From an uncultured Tateyamaria sp. (GTDB lineage Bacteria > Pseudomonadota > Alphaproteobacteria > Rhodobacterales > Rhodobacteraceae): 64,000 nt of DNA. Shown in pieces: positions 5,381-12,931 of this stretch. Both the position numbers and the translations under genes were made by a program. Numbering within the stretch: the first letter of the stretch is position 1; every line of letters starts with the position of its first letter. A model generated the notes under the pieces. It made no database searches. It was not told the DNA's origin and saw only the letters and a list, made by a program, of their open reading frames with translations. Location of the stretch: NCBI RefSeq assembly GCF_947494755.1, contig NZ_CANLVZ010000005.1:186001-250000 (forward strand), written 5' to 3'.

Positions 5381-5474
5381 CTTATGTGTCCAATTCCAAA
5401 CAATTAACGTACGTTTGTTTTTTGTTGGTTTAGGTTAACAAAGGGTTTCGAAATGGCCGGGAAGGGCTTTTGAC
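5381..5474. promoter_or_regulatory. Divergent pleD / DUF3572 promoter region
   Basis: This short AT-rich spacer separates the two divergent starts. It contains a perfect 10-base palindrome AACGTACGTT at 5406-5415 and T-rich DNA next to it. Both promoters must lie here; no exact boxes are assigned. Confidence 0.4.
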
Positions 5475-6570: not shown

Positions 6571-8133
6571 ATGAGCGATACCGGTCAAAGGCGCAGAACA
6601 CGTGGTGGCGGACGGGCAGGGGCCGCTGCACGACGCGGTGGGGCCGTGATCGAACAGATGCCGTGGAACCCGCCGATGATGATCGACGCCCCGATTGAGC
6701 CGCTGAAACCCGAAGGCGTCGCTGCGATCCATGACGGTGCAATGCGCATCCTCGAAGAGATCGGCGTGCAGTTCCTGAACGAAGAGGCCCTCGGGATCCT
6801 CAAAGAGGCGGGGTGCAAGATCGATGGTGACATCGTGCGCATGGACCGCGATTTCGTGATGGAGATGATTGGCAAAGCCCCGTCCGAGTTTACGCTGACC
6901 CCGCGCAATGAGGCCCGCAAGATCACCATCGGCGGCAATCACCTGACGTTCGGCAACGTGTCCTCCCCTCCCAACTATTGGGATATGGAGATCGGGACCA
7001 AGGTCGCGGGCACCCGCGAAATGTGCGCCAACCTGCTTAAGCTTACCCAGTATTTCAACTGCATCCACTTTGCAGGCGGCTACCCGGTGGAGCCGGTCGA
7101 TATTCACGCCTCGATCCGGCATCTGGACGTCGTCTATGACAAGCTGACGCTGACGGATAAAGTCATGCACGCCTACTCGCTAGGCAAGGAGCGGGTCGAG
7201 GACGTGATGGAGATGGTGCGCATCGCAGGCGGCCTTACCCATGAGGAGTTCGAGGCGAGCCCGCGGATGTATACCAACATCAACTCGACCTCACCGCTGA
7301 AACATGACCACCCGATGATTGACGGATGCCTGCGGCTGGTGCGGCGCGGGCAGGCGGTGGTCGTGACGCCGTTTACCTTGGCGGGTGCGATGGCCCCGGT
7401 GACGATGGCGGGGGCGGTGGCCCAATCGATTGCCGAAGGGCTCTGTGCGATTGCATTGTTCCAGTACGTCGCGCCGGGCTGTCCCTGCGCGATTGGGACG
7501 TTTACCTCAAATGTGGACATGAAGTCGGGCGCGCCCGCCTTTGGCACCCCTGAATACATGCGCGCGACGCAAATGACCGGCCAATTGGCGCGGTTTTACG
7601 GGTTGCCTATGCGCTCGTCGGGGGTGTGCGCGGCGAACGTGCCGGACGGGCAGGCCATGTGGGAGACATCCAACAGCCTGTGGTCGGCGGTGCATTCGGG
7701 CACCAACATGGTTTACCATGCCGCCGGCTGGCTTGAGGGCGGGTTGATCGCAAGCCCCGAGAAATTCATCATGGATTGCGAGATTTTGCAGCAAATTCAG
7801 CGGTATCTGGATCCTTCGATCACCTCGACGGCACCTGACGACATCGCACTCGATGCGATCAAGTCGGTCGGCAATGACGGGCACTTTTTTGGCATTCAGC
7901 ACACGCAGGATCGCTATACGACCGCGTTTTACCAGCCCTTCCTGAGCGATTGGAAAAACTACGAAGGATGGGAGGTCGCGGGGGGTATTTGGACGCCCGA
8001 ACGGGCTCACGTGATGTACAAAGACATTCTCGCCAATTTTGAAGCCCCCGAGATGGACGCAGCCATTCACGAAGAACTTGTGGCCTTTGTCGAACGGCGT
8101 AAAGCCGAAGGGGGCGCGCCGACCGACTTCTGA
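6571..8133 (+). CDS. MttB-superfamily methyltransferase without pyrrolysine
   Basis: A 520-residue protein of the trimethylamine methyltransferase (MttB) family. Family segments include a Gly-rich Arg-rich N terminus, HDGAMRILEEIGVQFL, NEARKITIGGNHLTFG and the C-terminal EALEELVAFVERRKAE-like end (here IHEELVAFVERRKAE). The frame has no in-frame amber codon, so it is the non-pyrrolysine branch, whose characterised members demethylate quaternary amines such as glycine betaine to a corrinoid protein. No corrinoid protein gene is adjacent. The start at ATG 6571 (behind GAGGG) is preferred to an ATG at 6514 that would add 19 residues overlapping a palindrome. Confidence 0.85.
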   Translation: MSDTGQRRRTRGGGRAGAAARRGGAVIEQMPWNPPMMIDAPIEPLKPEGVAAIHDGAMRILEEIGVQFLNEEALGILKEAGCKIDGDIVRMDRDFVMEMIGKAPSEFTLTPRNEARKITIGGNHLTFGNVSSPPNYWDMEIGTKVAGTREMCANLLKLTQYFNCIHFAGGYPVEPVDIHASIRHLDVVYDKLTLTDKVMHAYSLGKERVEDVMEMVRIAGGLTHEEFEASPRMYTNINSTSPLKHDHPMIDGCLRLVRRGQAVVVTPFTLAGAMAPVTMAGAVAQSIAEGLCAIALFQYVAPGCPCAIGTFTSNVDMKSGAPAFGTPEYMRATQMTGQLARFYGLPMRSSGVCAANVPDGQAMWETSNSLWSAVHSGTNMVYHAAGWLEGGLIASPEKFIMDCEILQQIQRYLDPSITSTAPDDIALDAIKSVGNDGHFFGIQHTQDRYTTAFYQPFLSDWKNYEGWEVAGGIWTPERAHVMYKDILANFEAPEMDAAIHEELVAFVERRKAEGGAPTDF

Positions 8134-8227
8134 TGAGGTCCCGAAAAATAGCTCAAATTGCATCTGTTATCTGAATATTTAGAGCTGACCGTGCATGTAT
8201 GGCGCGAAGATTTGGGATATCTGCGCG

Positions 8228-8815
8228 ATGCATGGTCTGATCAATAGGGCAATCCAGTGCTTTGTCACTGACAGTTACGGCGCTGACAAATGGGTCGAAG
8301 CGACCCGTGTGGCCGACCTTGATTTCGTCGAATTCGAGGCGATGTTGACCTATGATGATGACATTACCCCGGCTTTGCTCGACGCGGTCAGCGATGTTCT
8401 GGACCGTCCCCGCGACGAGGTGATGGAGGATATTGGCACCTATCTGGTATCCCATCCCAATGTGGAGGCGCTGCGCCGTCTGTTGCGTTTTGGCGGGGTG
8501 ACCTTTGTCGAGTTTCTGCACTCTCTCGATGATCTGCCGGATCGTGCGCGCCTTGCGGTGTCCGATCTGAACCTGCCGCGTATCGAATTGCGCGACCATT
8601 CCCCCACCCAGTTCAGCCTGATCTGCCAAAGCCCTGTCGCGGGATATGGTCACGTGATGATGGGCATATTGCGCACCATGGCGGATGATTACGGAACGCT
8701 GGCCATGCTCGAACATACCGGGGCTGGCAACGGGGTCGAAACGATCTCCGTCTCTCTGATCGAAACCGAGTTTGCGGAAGGCCGGGTGTTTGACCTCGGC
8801 GCGCGTGCCTCATGA
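8228..8815 (+). CDS. H-NOX (heme NO-binding)-like domain protein, ligand residues lost
   Basis: A 195-residue stand-alone H-NOX fold: MHGLINRAIQCFVTDSYG at the N terminus and the following helices fit the HNOB family. In classical members the heme iron is held by a His in the stretch aligned with LDDLPDR (residues 100-106); here that position is P104. The YxSxR heme-propionate motif aligns with LICQS (131-135) and is also gone. So a normal heme pocket is unlikely. The start at ATG 8228 gives the standard family N terminus; an ATG at 8195 adds 11 unrelated residues. It overlaps the next gene, a GGDEF cyclase, by four bases. Confidence 0.85.
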   Translation: MHGLINRAIQCFVTDSYGADKWVEATRVADLDFVEFEAMLTYDDDITPALLDAVSDVLDRPRDEVMEDIGTYLVSHPNVEALRRLLRFGGVTFVEFLHSLDDLPDRARLAVSDLNLPRIELRDHSPTQFSLICQSPVAGYGHVMMGILRTMADDYGTLAMLEHTGAGNGVETISVSLIETEFAEGRVFDLGARAS

Positions 8816-9849
8816 GTGATGTCGGCCAAATGTACCAGACCTTGGATGTCTTGTGCCCGATGCATGTGGTGTTGTCGGCGACCGGTCATGTGACCCATGC
8901 CGGGCCAACGGTGCAGAAGCTACGGCCTGATACGGCCATGATCGGGCGTCGGTTCCTCGAAATTTTTGACCTCAAACGCCCGCGGGCGATCTCGACAATG
9001 GACCAGTTGCGCGATACCGCAGGCACAAAGTTGCATTTGCAGCTGCGCGATGCCCCCCAGACCGAAGTAAAAGGTATTCTGGTGCCAGGGTTTGCGCCGG
9101 ATCATAGCATCGTGAACCTGTCCTTTGGTATTTCCGTTGTCGATGCGGTGTCGGACTATGCGCTGAGCAGCGCTGATTTCGCGGCCACGGATCTGACGGT
9201 GGAAATGCTGTATCTGGTCGAGGCAAAGTCGGCCGCCATGGACGCCTCGCGCAAGCTGAACCTGCGGTTGCAAGGCGCGATGATCGCCGCCGAAGAACAG
9301 GCGTTTACCGACACGCTGACGGGGCTGAAAAACCGCCGGGCCATGGATCATGTGCTGGCCCGTCATATCCAATGGGACACGCGCTTTGGTCTGATGCAGA
9401 TCGATCTGGACTGGTTCAAAGCGGTGAACGACACCCTCGGCCATGCGGCAGGAGATCATGTGTTGCAGACTGTGGCCCGCGTCATGGTCGAGGAAACCCG
9501 TGAAACAGACACCGTGGCCCGTGTCGGTGGTGATGAATTCGTGATCATCCTGCCCCATGCCAAAGGGCCCGATAGCCTGCTGAGCATCGGTCGGCGCATC
9601 ATCAAACGACTGTCCCGACCGATCCCCTTTCAGGGGGAGGAGTGCAAGATTTCAGCCAGCATAGGCGCCGCGGTCTTTGAGCCGGAATCAGGCCTGACAG
9701 TGGCGGAGATTCTCGACAATGCGGATGTGGCTTTGTACGCCTCCAAGCATGGCGGGCGCAGCCAACAGACCATTTACCACCCGGACCTGCGCGCACAGAC
9801 ACACAACCTCGCGCCGCCGGTCGGGCGCGCCGATACCCGGACCGCGTAG
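8812..9849 (+). CDS. HNOBA-like / GGDEF diguanylate cyclase
   Basis: A 345-residue protein. The N-terminal part (about 1-120: VLCPMHVVLSATGHVTHAGP, then GRRFLEIFDLKRPR) resembles the heme-NO-binding-associated PAS-like domain found with H-NOX proteins. A helical linker (about 130-165) leads to a GGDEF domain with LTGLKNRRAMD, active-site GGDEF at 239-243 and an I-site RETD at 230-233. It should therefore synthesise cyclic di-GMP with product feedback. The ATGA overlap with the H-NOX-like gene shows the two are made together, and the H-NOX protein is the likely regulator of this cyclase. Confidence 0.88.
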   Translation: MSDVGQMYQTLDVLCPMHVVLSATGHVTHAGPTVQKLRPDTAMIGRRFLEIFDLKRPRAISTMDQLRDTAGTKLHLQLRDAPQTEVKGILVPGFAPDHSIVNLSFGISVVDAVSDYALSSADFAATDLTVEMLYLVEAKSAAMDASRKLNLRLQGAMIAAEEQAFTDTLTGLKNRRAMDHVLARHIQWDTRFGLMQIDLDWFKAVNDTLGHAAGDHVLQTVARVMVEETRETDTVARVGGDEFVIILPHAKGPDSLLSIGRRIIKRLSRPIPFQGEECKISASIGAAVFEPESGLTVAEILDNADVALYASKHGGRSQQTIYHPDLRAQTHNLAPPVGRADTRTA

Positions 9850-10048: not shown

Positions 10049-10066
10049 TGTCAGGATATATTTACA
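10049..10066 (+). promoter_or_regulatory. PpsR/CrtJ-type operator, site 1
   Basis: TGTCAGGATATATTTACA fits TGT-N12-ACA exactly. PpsR (CrtJ) represses photosynthesis genes in oxygen or high light through such boxes, usually in pairs. It lies about 120 bases before pucB. Confidence 0.85.
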
Positions 10067-10074
10067 CTTGAAAT

Positions 10075-10092
10075 TGTAAGTTTTTGCTGACA
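10075..10092 (+). promoter_or_regulatory. PpsR/CrtJ-type operator, site 2
   Basis: TGTAAGTTTTTGCTGACA is a second exact TGT-N12-ACA box, eight bases after the first. This close tandem arrangement is the usual form for cooperative binding by PpsR. The pucB promoter is expected to overlap these sites. Confidence 0.85.
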
Positions 10093-10185
10093 CTCTGGCT
10101 GGTACAGTGTGTGTTTAGAGGCGACAGGACCGGGGCATGGCAAGCCTGATTCTGGCGCAAAGCTTCGAAACACGGAGGAATGAAC

Positions 10186-10341
10186 GTGGCGGATAGTGAC
10201 GACAAAGTGTGGCCGACGGGGCTCACGCTTGAAGAGGCTGAGGAAGTCCACAGCTACCTCATCGATGGGACGCGCGTCTTTGGCGCAATTGCCCTTTTGG
10301 CCCACATCTTGGTCGCTGTGTCGACCCCGTGGTTGGGATAG
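10186..10341 (+). CDS. pucB: Light-harvesting LH2 beta polypeptide
   Basis: A 51-residue protein, too short for standard ORF cut-offs. It matches Puc[30 protein letters not shown], and a C-terminal STPWLG. H40 is the expected axial ligand of a B850-type bacteriochlorophyll; H22 is the other conserved His. A single membrane helix spans about 26-46. The GTG at 10186 is preferred to an ATG at 10180: it gives the 51-residue length of R. sphaeroides PucB and places the GGAGG (10174-10178) seven bases upstream, whereas the ATG would be only one base away. pucA follows after 12 bases. Confidence 0.93.
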
Positions 10342-10353
10342 GGGAGTCCTCAC

Positions 10354-10701
10354 ATGAACAATGCAAAAATGTGGTTGGTCGTAAATCCAACAGTTGGTGT
10401 GCCGCTGTTTCTGAGCGCGGTTGCGGTCGGATCCTTCGCGGTTCATGTCGCAGTGCTCAGCAACACATCCTGGGTGTCTGACTTCTTGTCGGGCAACGAA
10501 CTGGGCTCGGGTGACGAGGTGTCTGCAAGGCTGCTGCCGAATGCGGACACAGATGTGGCCAAGGCGACTTACGTCGTGCCCGGCGCGGATGGGTCACGTG
10601 AAGTGACGATCATCATGTCCGATGGCACGCCCGTCAAAGCGATCCTGCAACCATCTGAGTTGCATGCCGCGTCAGGCGCAACGCCACTGATCTCGCAATA
10701 A
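10354..10701 (+). CDS. pucA: Light-harvesting LH2 alpha polypeptide with long C-terminal extension
   Basis: The first 48 residues are a typical LH2 alpha chain: KMWLVVNPTVGVPLFLSAVAV, one membrane helix, and H31 as bacteriochlorophyll ligand. Met1 would ligate the B800 pigment. Positions 44 and 45, usually Tyr-Tyr or Tyr-Trp in B850 antennae, are Phe and Leu, the pair seen in B800-820 (LH3) complexes. The protein then continues for about 67 residues (49-115), a hydrophilic tail expected on the periplasmic side; ordinary alpha chains are about 53-60 long. A GGGGAG site lies at 10341-10346, overlapping the pucB stop, so pucBA are translated together. Confidence 0.92.
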   Translation: MNNAKMWLVVNPTVGVPLFLSAVAVGSFAVHVAVLSNTSWVSDFLSGNELGSGDEVSARLLPNADTDVAKATYVVPGADGSREVTIIMSDGTPVKAILQPSELHAASGATPLISQ

Positions 10702-10793: not shown

Positions 10794-12251
10794 ATGTTCG
10801 ACTATCGTACATATGCAACGCGGAAATTGGCGGCTGTTGGCCCCAAATATCTGCCGTTTGCGGATGTGGCGAGTGACGAGGTCCCCCTGTCGCGTCTTTT
10901 ACGTTTGTCGTTGTTTCAGGTCACTGTCGGGATGGCGTTGGTGTTGCTTGTCGGCACGCTGAACCGGGTGATGATCGTTGAGCTGTCAGTGCCCGCGACG
11001 CTTGTGGCGTTGATGCTGGCACTGCCTTTGATATTTGCGCCGCTGCGGACCCTGATCGGTTTCAAGTCGGACACCCATGTCTCGGCCCTTGGCCTGCGCC
11101 GCGTGCCCTATATCTGGAAGGGCACATTGCTGCAATTTGGCGGCTTTGCGATCATGCCCTTCGCGCTGCTTGTGCTGTCGGGATATGGCGAGGCGGTCGA
11201 TGCGCCCCGCTGGATCGGATACAGTTCTGCGGCGCTGTCGTTTCTGCTGGTGGGGGCCGGGGTGCACATGGTGCAGACCATCGGCTTAGCTTTGGCCACT
11301 GATCTGGTCCCGCAAGAGGATCACCCCAAGGTCGTTGGACTGATGTATGTCATGTTGTTGCTTGGCATGGTCGCGAGTGCGCTGGTTTTTGGCGCGCTGC
11401 TGGAGACCTACACGCCGGGCCGGTTGATCCAAGTCATACAGGGGGCGGCCGTCGCGACGGTTGCGCTGAACATGTGCGCCATGTGGAAGCAGGAGGCCCG
11501 CAATCGCCCCCGTGCAGCTGCCATGAAGGCCGCGCAACCCGTTGAATTTACACACGCCCTTTCCAGCCTTATCAAGGCCAAGGGCATGACCTGTTTGCTT
11601 GGCGTGATCGCCCTGGGCACATTCGGCTTTGGTATGGCGGATGTCCTGCTGGAACCTTACGGCGGACAGGTTCTGGGCCTGTCGGTGGCGGGCACGACCA
11701 AGCTGACCGCACTCTTGGCAGCCGGAACACTTTGCGGCTTCGTGCTGGCGGCGCGCAATCTGGGGCAGGGCGGATCGCCCACCCGGTTTTCCATGATCGG
11801 GGCGGCCATCGGTATCCCCGGGTTCCTGGCGGTCATTGTGTCGGCGCAAGGCTTTGGCATCCCGTTGTTTCTCGCAGGCACGCTGGCCACCGGGATTGGC
11901 GCGGGCCTGTTCGGACACGCCACTTTGACTGCGACCATCCGCAACGCGCCCAAGGACCGCATCGGCCTCGCGCTTGGCGCGTGGGGTGCCGTGCAGGCGA
12001 CGGCGGCGGGCATCGGCATTGCTTTGGCCGGGATTGTGCGTGATGTCATTGTGGGCTGGCACGGCGATGTTGGACGCGCCGCGCAAACGCCCTACACTTT
12101 GGTATTCATGATAGAAATCGTGTTTCTTGTATTGGCCATTCTGATCTTGCTGCCGACCTTGAAACGCCCTTTACGACCTAATGATCGGCTGGAACTGTGC
12201 GCGCCTGCTGAACCGACAAACCAAAATTCAAACCCGGTGGAGGTTCCATGA
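10794..12251 (+). CDS. pucC: PucC, LH2 assembly factor of the BCD/MFS family
   Basis: A 485-residue inner-membrane protein with twelve predicted helices. Family hallmarks are the N-terminal KYLPFADVASDEVPLSRLLRLSLFQ region, GTLNRVMIVELSVPA, and FKSDTHVSALGLRRVPYIWKG between helices 2 and 3. PucC belongs to the bacteriochlorophyll-delivery subfamily of major facilitators and is needed for LH2 assembly, probably by bringing pigment or holding subunits. It lies 92 bases after pucA, beyond a stable hairpin. Its stop overlaps the next ATG by four bases, coupling it to the repeat-containing protein. Confidence 0.92.
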   Translation: MFDYRTYATRKLAAVGPKYLPFADVASDEVPLSRLLRLSLFQVTVGMALVLLVGTLNRVMIVELSVPATLVALMLALPLIFAPLRTLIGFKSDTHVSALGLRRVPYIWKGTLLQFGGFAIMPFALLVLSGYGEAVDAPRWIGYSSAALSFLLVGAGVHMVQTIGLALATDLVPQEDHPKVVGLMYVMLLLGMVASALVFGALLETYTPGRLIQVIQGAAVATVALNMCAMWKQEARNRPRAAAMKAAQPVEFTHALSSLIKAKGMTCLLGVIALGTFGFGMADVLLEPYGGQVLGLSVAGTTKLTALLAAGTLCGFVLAARNLGQGGSPTRFSMIGAAIGIPGFLAVIVSAQGFGIPLFLAGTLATGIGAGLFGHATLTATIRNAPKDRIGLALGAWGAVQATAAGIGIALAGIVRDVIVGWHGDVGRAAQTPYTLVFMIEIVFLVLAILILLPTLKRPLRPNDRLELCAPAEPTNQNSNPVEVP

Positions 12252-12931
12252 CCAATATTATCTCACGTGTATTCGAGGATGAGGCCGCAGCCCGCTATGC
12301 GGCCGAACGGATCGTGTTTCGCGGGGTGCCAAGCCGTGACGTCAAAGTGATCGCGGGCTCGGATGCCGAGGCCACGAACGCCAAGATGGCCCAAGCCGAA
12401 GTGGATGACGGCACGATGAGTGCATATGCTTCGGCGCTGGAGAAAGGGCAGGCCGTTCTTGTCGTGCGGGCCACCTACAAACCGCTGACAGCGGCCACGG
12501 TTGTGCGCGATCTGCTGTCCAAGATGGACACCATCGATGTTGGCGATGTGGTCGAGGATTACTACCGTGTCGATGGCCCCGAGGTCGCCTCCAGCGTGCT
12601 CAAAGAGCATCCGCTCTTCCTGACGGTGCGGTTTGACCGCACGGGGTATTCCGGTGGGCCGGTCACCAAGGGTCTTGGGTGGCGCATGCTCAGCCAGCGG
12701 CGCGCCCGCACCTCGGCCATTCGCGGCGGTGGGTTCAAGTCGCGCGTGTTCTGGCCGATGCCCCTTTTGTCGACCAAACAGCGCAAGAAGTCCGTTATCA
12801 GCGGCGGGCGATACATGTCCAAGGCGTTCTGGCCAATGGCGCTTTTGTCGACGAAGCCCCGTTCGAATTCGGTGATAAAGGGCGGTGATTTGCCCTTGTC
12901 GCGTGCCTTGGGTTGGCCTGCCGTCAGCTGA
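12248..12931 (+). CDS. Puc-operon protein of unknown function with FWPM-LLST repeats
   Basis: A 227-residue soluble protein translationally coupled to pucC by an ATGA overlap. The N-terminal part (1-110) is a small alpha/beta fold starting VFEDEAAARYAAERIVFRGV, somewhat like stress proteins of the YflT type. The C-terminal part is made of repeats of 24-26 residues: R1 136-159, R2 160-185, R3 186-211 and a half copy R4 212-227. Repeats 2 and 3 share FWPMPLLSTK or FWPMALLSTK, flanked by GG and an S-V-I-S/K end. The tail is very basic and aromatic. No catalytic motif is recognised. Its place in the puc operon, ahead of the terminator, suggests a role in antenna assembly or regulation, but this is inference. 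Confidence 0.7.
   Translation: MTNIISRVFEDEAAARYAAERIVFRGVPSRDVKVIAGSDAEATNAKMAQAEVDDGTMSAYASALEKGQAVLVVRATYKPLTAATVVRDLLSKMDTIDVGDVVEDYYRVDGPEVASSVLKEHPLFLTVRFDRTGYSGGPVTKGLGWRMLSQRRARTSAIRGGGFKSRVFWPMPLLSTKQRKKSVISGGRYMSKAFWPMALLSTKPRSNSVIKGGDLPLSRALGWPAVS

Follow-up and report, generated by a model that had tools for sequence, protein, structure and literature searches.

What kind of antenna does the puc locus of this uncultured Tateyamaria sp. encode, and from how many parts is that antenna built? The window analysed here is the whole 64,000-nucleotide stretch of contig NZ_CANLVZ010000005.1 (positions 186,001 to 250,000), and its puc genes lie close together on the forward strand. In our judgement the locus is best explained, as a whole and with good probability, as a four-gene puc operon (pucB, pucA, pucC and a new gene) for an LH2 ring of the LH4 type. 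The genes concerned are as follows:

10180..10341, + strand: pucB, LH2 beta chain, 53 aa (PF00556, E 3.4e-10)
10354..10701, + strand: pucA, LH2 alpha chain, 115 aa, with H31, V41, F44, L45 and a C-terminal extension (PF00556, E 1e-12)
10794..12251, + strand: pucC, LH2 assembly factor (PF03209, E 3.1e-141)
12248..12931, + strand: fourth puc gene, 227 aa, whose start overlaps the pucC stop (ATGA); proposed gamma-like LH2 subunit

The alpha chain, with the N-terminus MNNAKMWLVV, is recognisable as an LH2 alpha from its match to the LHC family, its His31 and its puc context separate from the LH1 pair; the genome's second LHC pair lies on contig C14 and puc on C5. A first-pass annotation of the locus had identified H31 and a Phe44-Leu45 pair in PucA, and both were borne out. 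Residues 1-48 or more align to solved LH2 alphas without gaps in all five phmmer alignments shown, and F44-L45 fall opposite Y44-Y45 of R. sphaeroides (7pbw). Since the register to these solved chains is free of gaps, positions 44-45 are the hydrogen-bonding pair. With V41-F44-L45, PucA has no donor at alpha 41, 44 or 45, the positions that bond the B850 C3 acetyl groups in solved nonameric LH2s, as the LH4 type requires. Val41, the conserved C-terminal extension of PucA and the fourth gene of the operon were all absent from the first-pass annotation. The parts of PucA that matter to the argument are these:

10444..10446, + strand: H31 codon, placed by alignment; B850 bacteriochlorophyll ligand by analogy with solved homologues
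10474..10476, + strand: V41 codon; the equivalent Tyr41 is a hydrogen-bond donor in strain 7050 LH3
10483..10488, + strand: F44-L45 codons, replacing both hydrogen-bond donors of B850 LH2
10495..10698, + strand: C-terminal extension, conserved in relatives; three strands predicted within residues 70-98 (block pLDDT 49-74)

The extension, slightly under 70 residues long, is present in nearly all of the roseobacter-type alphas collected, and from LH2 topology we take it to lie on the periplasmic side. To the eye it resembles the domain at the C-terminus of R. sphaeroides Puc2A, but homology was rejected (hhalign E 0.17, probability 0.4%).

How widely the motif is shared was determined in several overlapping collections. 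A search of the same family found a PucA-like match in 38 of 295 genomes, and the 41 PucA from those genomes comprised 31 with F44-L45, three with Y44-L45 and seven with Y44-Y45; among the best 80 of 172 relatives from a contig scan, 75 had F44-L45 and five Y44-L45. Pooling these, best 80 included, with loci from two genera and counting identical PucA once gave 110 distinct proteins, of which 96 carry V41-F44-L45, seven Y44-L45 and seven Y44-Y45. As H31 is present in all 110 and F44-L45 in 96, neither is a chance feature of this one chain; with V41-F44-L45 at that frequency, the motif is typical of a clade. Y44-L45 is found, for example, in Thetidibacter halocola and Tateyamaria pelophila, and five of the seven Y44-L45 proteins (L021/L078, L036, L037, L091, L095) also have Y41. 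To judge from these residues, Y41 together with Y44 could return two hydrogen-bond donors, and we would expect such proteins to absorb to the red of 805 nm, making these variants a natural test of hydrogen-bond number against band position. A further locus, L266 (G425:C31), from another family of the class, has an F44-L45 PucA of roseobacter type complete with C-terminal extension, perhaps a transfer; its fourth gene is divergent.

The spectral consequence of these residues can be anticipated from characterised complexes. Two, one or no hydrogen bonds to the C3 acetyl go with bands at about 850, 825 and 800 nm respectively (PMC9618040). The expectation that this organism's antenna absorbs well below 850 nm is supported by D. 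shibae and R. litoralis, whose PucA share V41-F44-L45 and which absorb at 804 and 806 nm (PMC12654162, Table 2). R. denitrificans PucA carries the same three residues, and all three species show a single peak at about 800 nm together with the F44L45 motif (PMC12654162, section 3.4.2). The genomes that supplied these three PucA were assigned to their species by 100% matches to the known plasmids. The missing C3-acetyl bonds would shift the B850 Qy band to the blue until it merged with B800, leaving one band at about 805 nm, in line with the single band reported for relatives with the same residues. Resemblance to these High-800 antennas extends further, to Ser27 and the C-terminal extension, and in their puc loci, as in the window, pucC is followed by a member of the fourth-gene family.

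The B800-820 complex LH3, with which the first-pass annotation had compared this chain, proved to be the wrong yardstick. LH3 of Rhodoblastus acidophilus 7050 likewise has no donors at 44 and 45, and F44-L45 was named in that annotation as an LH3 pair; moreover, an R. sphaeroides mutant in which the two donors are gone has its band at 826 nm (PMC9618040). The two-band antenna implied by the annotation's title, with one band at 800 nm and another at about 820 nm, is nonetheless improbable, for LH3 retains alpha-Tyr41 as a donor (PMC9618040), the window PucA has Val41 and so falls outside the LH3 definition (Tyr41 kept, 44 and 45 non-donors), and the characterised relatives with the same residues show one band at 804-806 nm. 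Because LH3 keeps the Tyr41 bond, LH4 (about 805 nm) and not LH3 (about 820 nm) is the appropriate model, and since Val41 accompanies F44-L45 in 96 of 96 proteins a band near 805 nm, not 820 nm, is to be expected. A closer published counterpart is the PucD-LH2 of Rhodopseudomonas palustris (7ze3), likewise without a B850 hydrogen bond and with a single band at 803 nm, although it is a low-light complex among several LH2s, has F44-M45 and is built on a 59-residue alpha without the extension. An antenna that still absorbed near 850 nm, with other donors such as a beta-chain Trp compensating, is very improbable: the window beta chain does end in TPWLG, with Trp at His+9, and in Phs. molischianum such a beta Trp acts as donor to beta-B850 (PMC9618040), yet D. 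shibae, with the same beta end and the same alpha residues, absorbs at 804 nm.

The blue-shift motif is therefore real, but it is not special to this organism. It is a trait of the clade, the link of F44L45 to a single LH4-type band at about 800 nm in aerobic phototrophs is already in print (PMC12654162, a 2025 review), and the tuning by hydrogen bonds is known. What is possibly new here is the fourth gene, as a member of a gamma-like LH2 subunit family extending beyond Rhodopseudomonas.

The promoter region of the operon carries a tandem pair of regulatory sites:

10049..10066, + strand: PpsR/CrtJ-type site TGTN12ACA, first of the pair, upstream of pucB (exact match)
10075..10092, + strand: second PpsR/CrtJ-type site, 26 bp from the first (exact match)

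Of the 77 named relatives whose sequence reaches far enough upstream, 71 have at least one TGTN12ACA in the roughly 350 nt ahead of pucB, compared with a mean of 5.2 and a maximum of 12 when the same 77 regions were subjected to 200 mononucleotide shuffles. Across the window the pattern occurs 16 times against a mean expectation of 7.8, and a second pair, 38 bp apart, lies at 5385-5440. Immediately before the puc promoter, at 8195-9849, stand two overlapping genes, one for a haem-NO-binding (H-NOX) protein and the other for a diguanylate cyclase that has an HNOBA-like part.

The fourth gene consistently accompanies this type of LH2. When the 295 same-family genomes were searched with PucA and with a profile of the fourth gene, all 34 that have a roseobacter-type PucA proved to carry it, against two of 261 without (Fisher's exact p 1.4e-42, kinship ignored), the four genomes with only Y44-Y45 PucA being grouped as non-roseobacter type. 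The two positives among the 261 are a broken relic in G126 and, in G058, a protein that matches in its N-terminal part only. In G126 no pucBA was found and the LHC search gave the LH1 pair alone; at this locus (L227, G126:C3:38000-52000, at 6649-8259) pucC and the fourth gene are both decaying. Within two genera in which LH2 is patchy, the gene occurs in 26 of 26 PucA genomes and in none of 13 others, again with kinship ignored and with three genomes (G000, G240, G266) entering the family tally as well as that of the genera. One of the 26, G328, was counted as present although its match has an internal stop; this copy may be broken.

Its position is equally constant. Among the 80 named loci (the best 80 of 172 relatives) the gene was found at 77, and in all 77 pucC lies between pucA and the fourth gene on the same strand. 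From the last aligned pucC base to the start of the fourth gene is 0-391 nt, with a median of 6, figures to be read knowing that the distance is shorter at L105 and that the start found at L124 is a truncated one. L105 is an ALOHA metagenome locus whose PucA (2501-2836) has Arg in place of Trp40; there the fourth gene lies closer to pucA. In the three exceptions (L049, L052 and L066, which correspond to G324, G301 and G316) the gene is elsewhere in the genome. Of five copies situated away from pucC, three have a TGTN12ACA at most 350 nt upstream, where chance would give 0.045-0.093 per copy, and the stray copy of G324 is preceded by a tandem pair with the same 26-bp spacing as in the window's puc promoter. 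Between the window and G323 the dN/dS of the gene is 0.025/0.54.

D. shibae likewise has pucB, pucA, pucC and the fourth gene in a row. The puc operon of this species has been taken to comprise Dshi_2897-Dshi_2900, whose levels fall in an ldaP mutant and rise in a ppsR mutant (PMC10890935). It is the gene layout, rather than the wording of that paper, that makes the fourth of these tags the homologue of our gene. In a search of openly licensed PubMed Central papers the gene was implied only, by this four-gene operon; Duquesne et al. 2011 could mention it. In the Rhodobacter-type (Y44-Y45) puc loci no member of the family was found (best E 0.93 with filters off, seven loci in four genomes), and the profile search found none in the four genomes that have Y44-Y45 PucA only.

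What does the fourth protein do? It divides into two parts:

12248..12577, + strand: N-terminal ferredoxin-like domain (AlphaFold2, residues 1-110, block pLDDT 75-92)
12578..12928, + strand: basic repeat region (from residue 116, K+R 21 and D+E 3)

The excess of K+R over D+E seen in this tail is shared by D. shibae (21 vs 9) and R. denitrificans (44 vs 17). In the window protein, repeat units of 24-26 residues occur near residues 143, 168 and 194 and are followed by a C-terminal cap, LSRALGWPAVS. Beyond residue 110 the pLDDT of the AlphaFold2 model, made with an 11-row alignment, is mostly below 50, which would fit a ribbon but also an alignment that shallow. Family members come in two sizes: among the 39 proteins collected first, a few of them cut by contig ends, 28 are 193-252 aa long and the other 11 measure 312-365 aa. 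The window and D. shibae have the short form, with about three to five units by eye (the pattern finds 0-4), whereas R. denitrificans and R. litoralis have a long form of eight units. Seven of the 14 long proteins have exactly eight units at a spacing of 25; another has eight but with a single spacing of 26, one has seven by the pattern, two have eight at less regular spacing, two are mainly of 15-residue units and one has five. The two with short units, L204 and L196, carry the GHKFMAKFPFGHIVP type rather than units of 25, near the repeat length of gamma, the LH2-linked repeat protein of R. palustris.

Searches of general databases gave the protein no name. The window protein had no Pfam match; four further family members had none above the cut-off (with one chance-level match to ribosomal L12), nor had two more. 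NCBIfam matched none of 11 members, and PHROGs matched one of the 11, at E 0.0013 to a 'DNA methyltransferase' family, which we took as chance. Foldseek returned 619 matches at E <= 10 and none at E <= 0.001; as the best was at E 0.068, with CutA1-like structures among the best, no function can be assigned from it. The N-terminal domain of one distant relative resembles the stress-protein domain YflT (PF11181) weakly and below the cut-off (E 0.0014, 19.5 bits against 26.2), and the window protein does not match YflT.

Such hints would suit a cytoplasmic factor for LH2 assembly, stability or stress, its basic tail touching the membrane or nascent chains, that is neither a subunit nor a pigment carrier. 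Besides the YflT likeness, this reading can call on the place of the gene after the assembly factor pucC, on a protein without a transmembrane stretch (best 19-residue hydropathy mean 0.99), and on G674 and G058, the latter matching in the N-terminal part, which lie away from LHC genes and look stress-related. We regard it as a possible but rather unlikely account: eight regular 25-residue units, as in half of the long proteins, suit a scaffold on a ring better than a chaperone, and a relative beside LH2, that of G575, matches LH2-gamma first in the PDB.

This relative came from outside the family. A class-wide search found the fourth-gene family in five of 384 other genomes, all of them outside the family. 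In G425 the gene is divergent beside an F44-L45 LH2, in G428 convergent beside a Y44-W45 LH2, and in G477 and G654 it stands between two pucBA pairs with F44-F45; G674 has a DUF2382 protein (E 1.7e-17) of stress type, far from LHC genes. In the family to which G477 belongs, five of 17 genomes match, G575 and G719 among them, both with the gene beside an F44-F45 LH2 and in G575 directly after pucA. G716 gave a weak family match (E 5e-4). That the fourth gene goes strictly with F44-L45 was considered and rejected in view of the F44-F45 neighbours in G477, G654, G719 and G575 and the Y44-W45 neighbour in G428; nor, given this Y44-W45 LH2 beside it in G428, does the gene follow the blue shift without exception.

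When the G575 protein was compared with 177,635 PDB sequences, the first match was R. palustris LH2-gamma (E 0.006), the next being at 0.89. The alignment has a 16-residue period with one longer unit and a G-x-P-L-[IL]-x-K core that the two proteins appear to share, and its score was reached by one of 2000 column-shuffled gammas, by one of 5000 shuffled G575 cores and by 24 of 5000 in a register test. PDB searches with the window, R. denitrificans and G477 proteins and with both family profiles did not match gamma; directly against 7zcu_S, the window protein gave nothing at E <= 10 and profile A2 nothing at E <= 5. Pairwise p values against gamma were 0.011 for G477 and 0.33 (chance) for R. 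denitrificans; the window protein gave 0.002 in a short alignment. The G575 repeats are in turn weakly similar to those of R. denitrificans and of the window, with 21 and 11 of 1000 shuffles respectively reaching the score. As the connection passes through the shared N-terminal domain and G575 only, kinship between the roseobacter repeats and gamma is a lead and not proof.

Gamma itself (7zcu chain S) is a ribbon with six extra bacteriochlorophylls, and PMC9618040 (section 9) reports it in Rhodopseudomonas only. It differs from the fourth protein in having 97 residues, no N-terminal domain and Ser ligands, and for its ligand Ser there is no certain counterpart in the fourth protein. By analogy with gamma, we lean slightly towards reading the fourth protein as an LH2 accessory subunit, a basic-repeat ribbon on the cytoplasmic side of the ring that probably binds extra monomeric bacteriochlorophylls. 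The repeat region would then run as an extended ribbon along that face, with the N-terminal domain in the cytoplasm, and further monomeric bacteriochlorophylls would probably be bound as they are by gamma in R. palustris; in the long form, eight repeats plus the cap could serve all nine alpha-beta pairs. The more specific proposal, that the roseobacter LH2 has a third subunit whose repeats wrap the ring cytoplasmically like gamma, bind extra B800-type bacteriochlorophylls and add absorption at 800 nm, is in our view evenly balanced. If it were true, gamma would be one branch of a wider family of LH2 ribbons, whose usual members have a stress-type N-terminal domain. Should the fourth protein have this role, a component of LH2 would have gone overlooked in many marine roseobacters, and the pigments of purified LH4-type complexes would have to be counted again.
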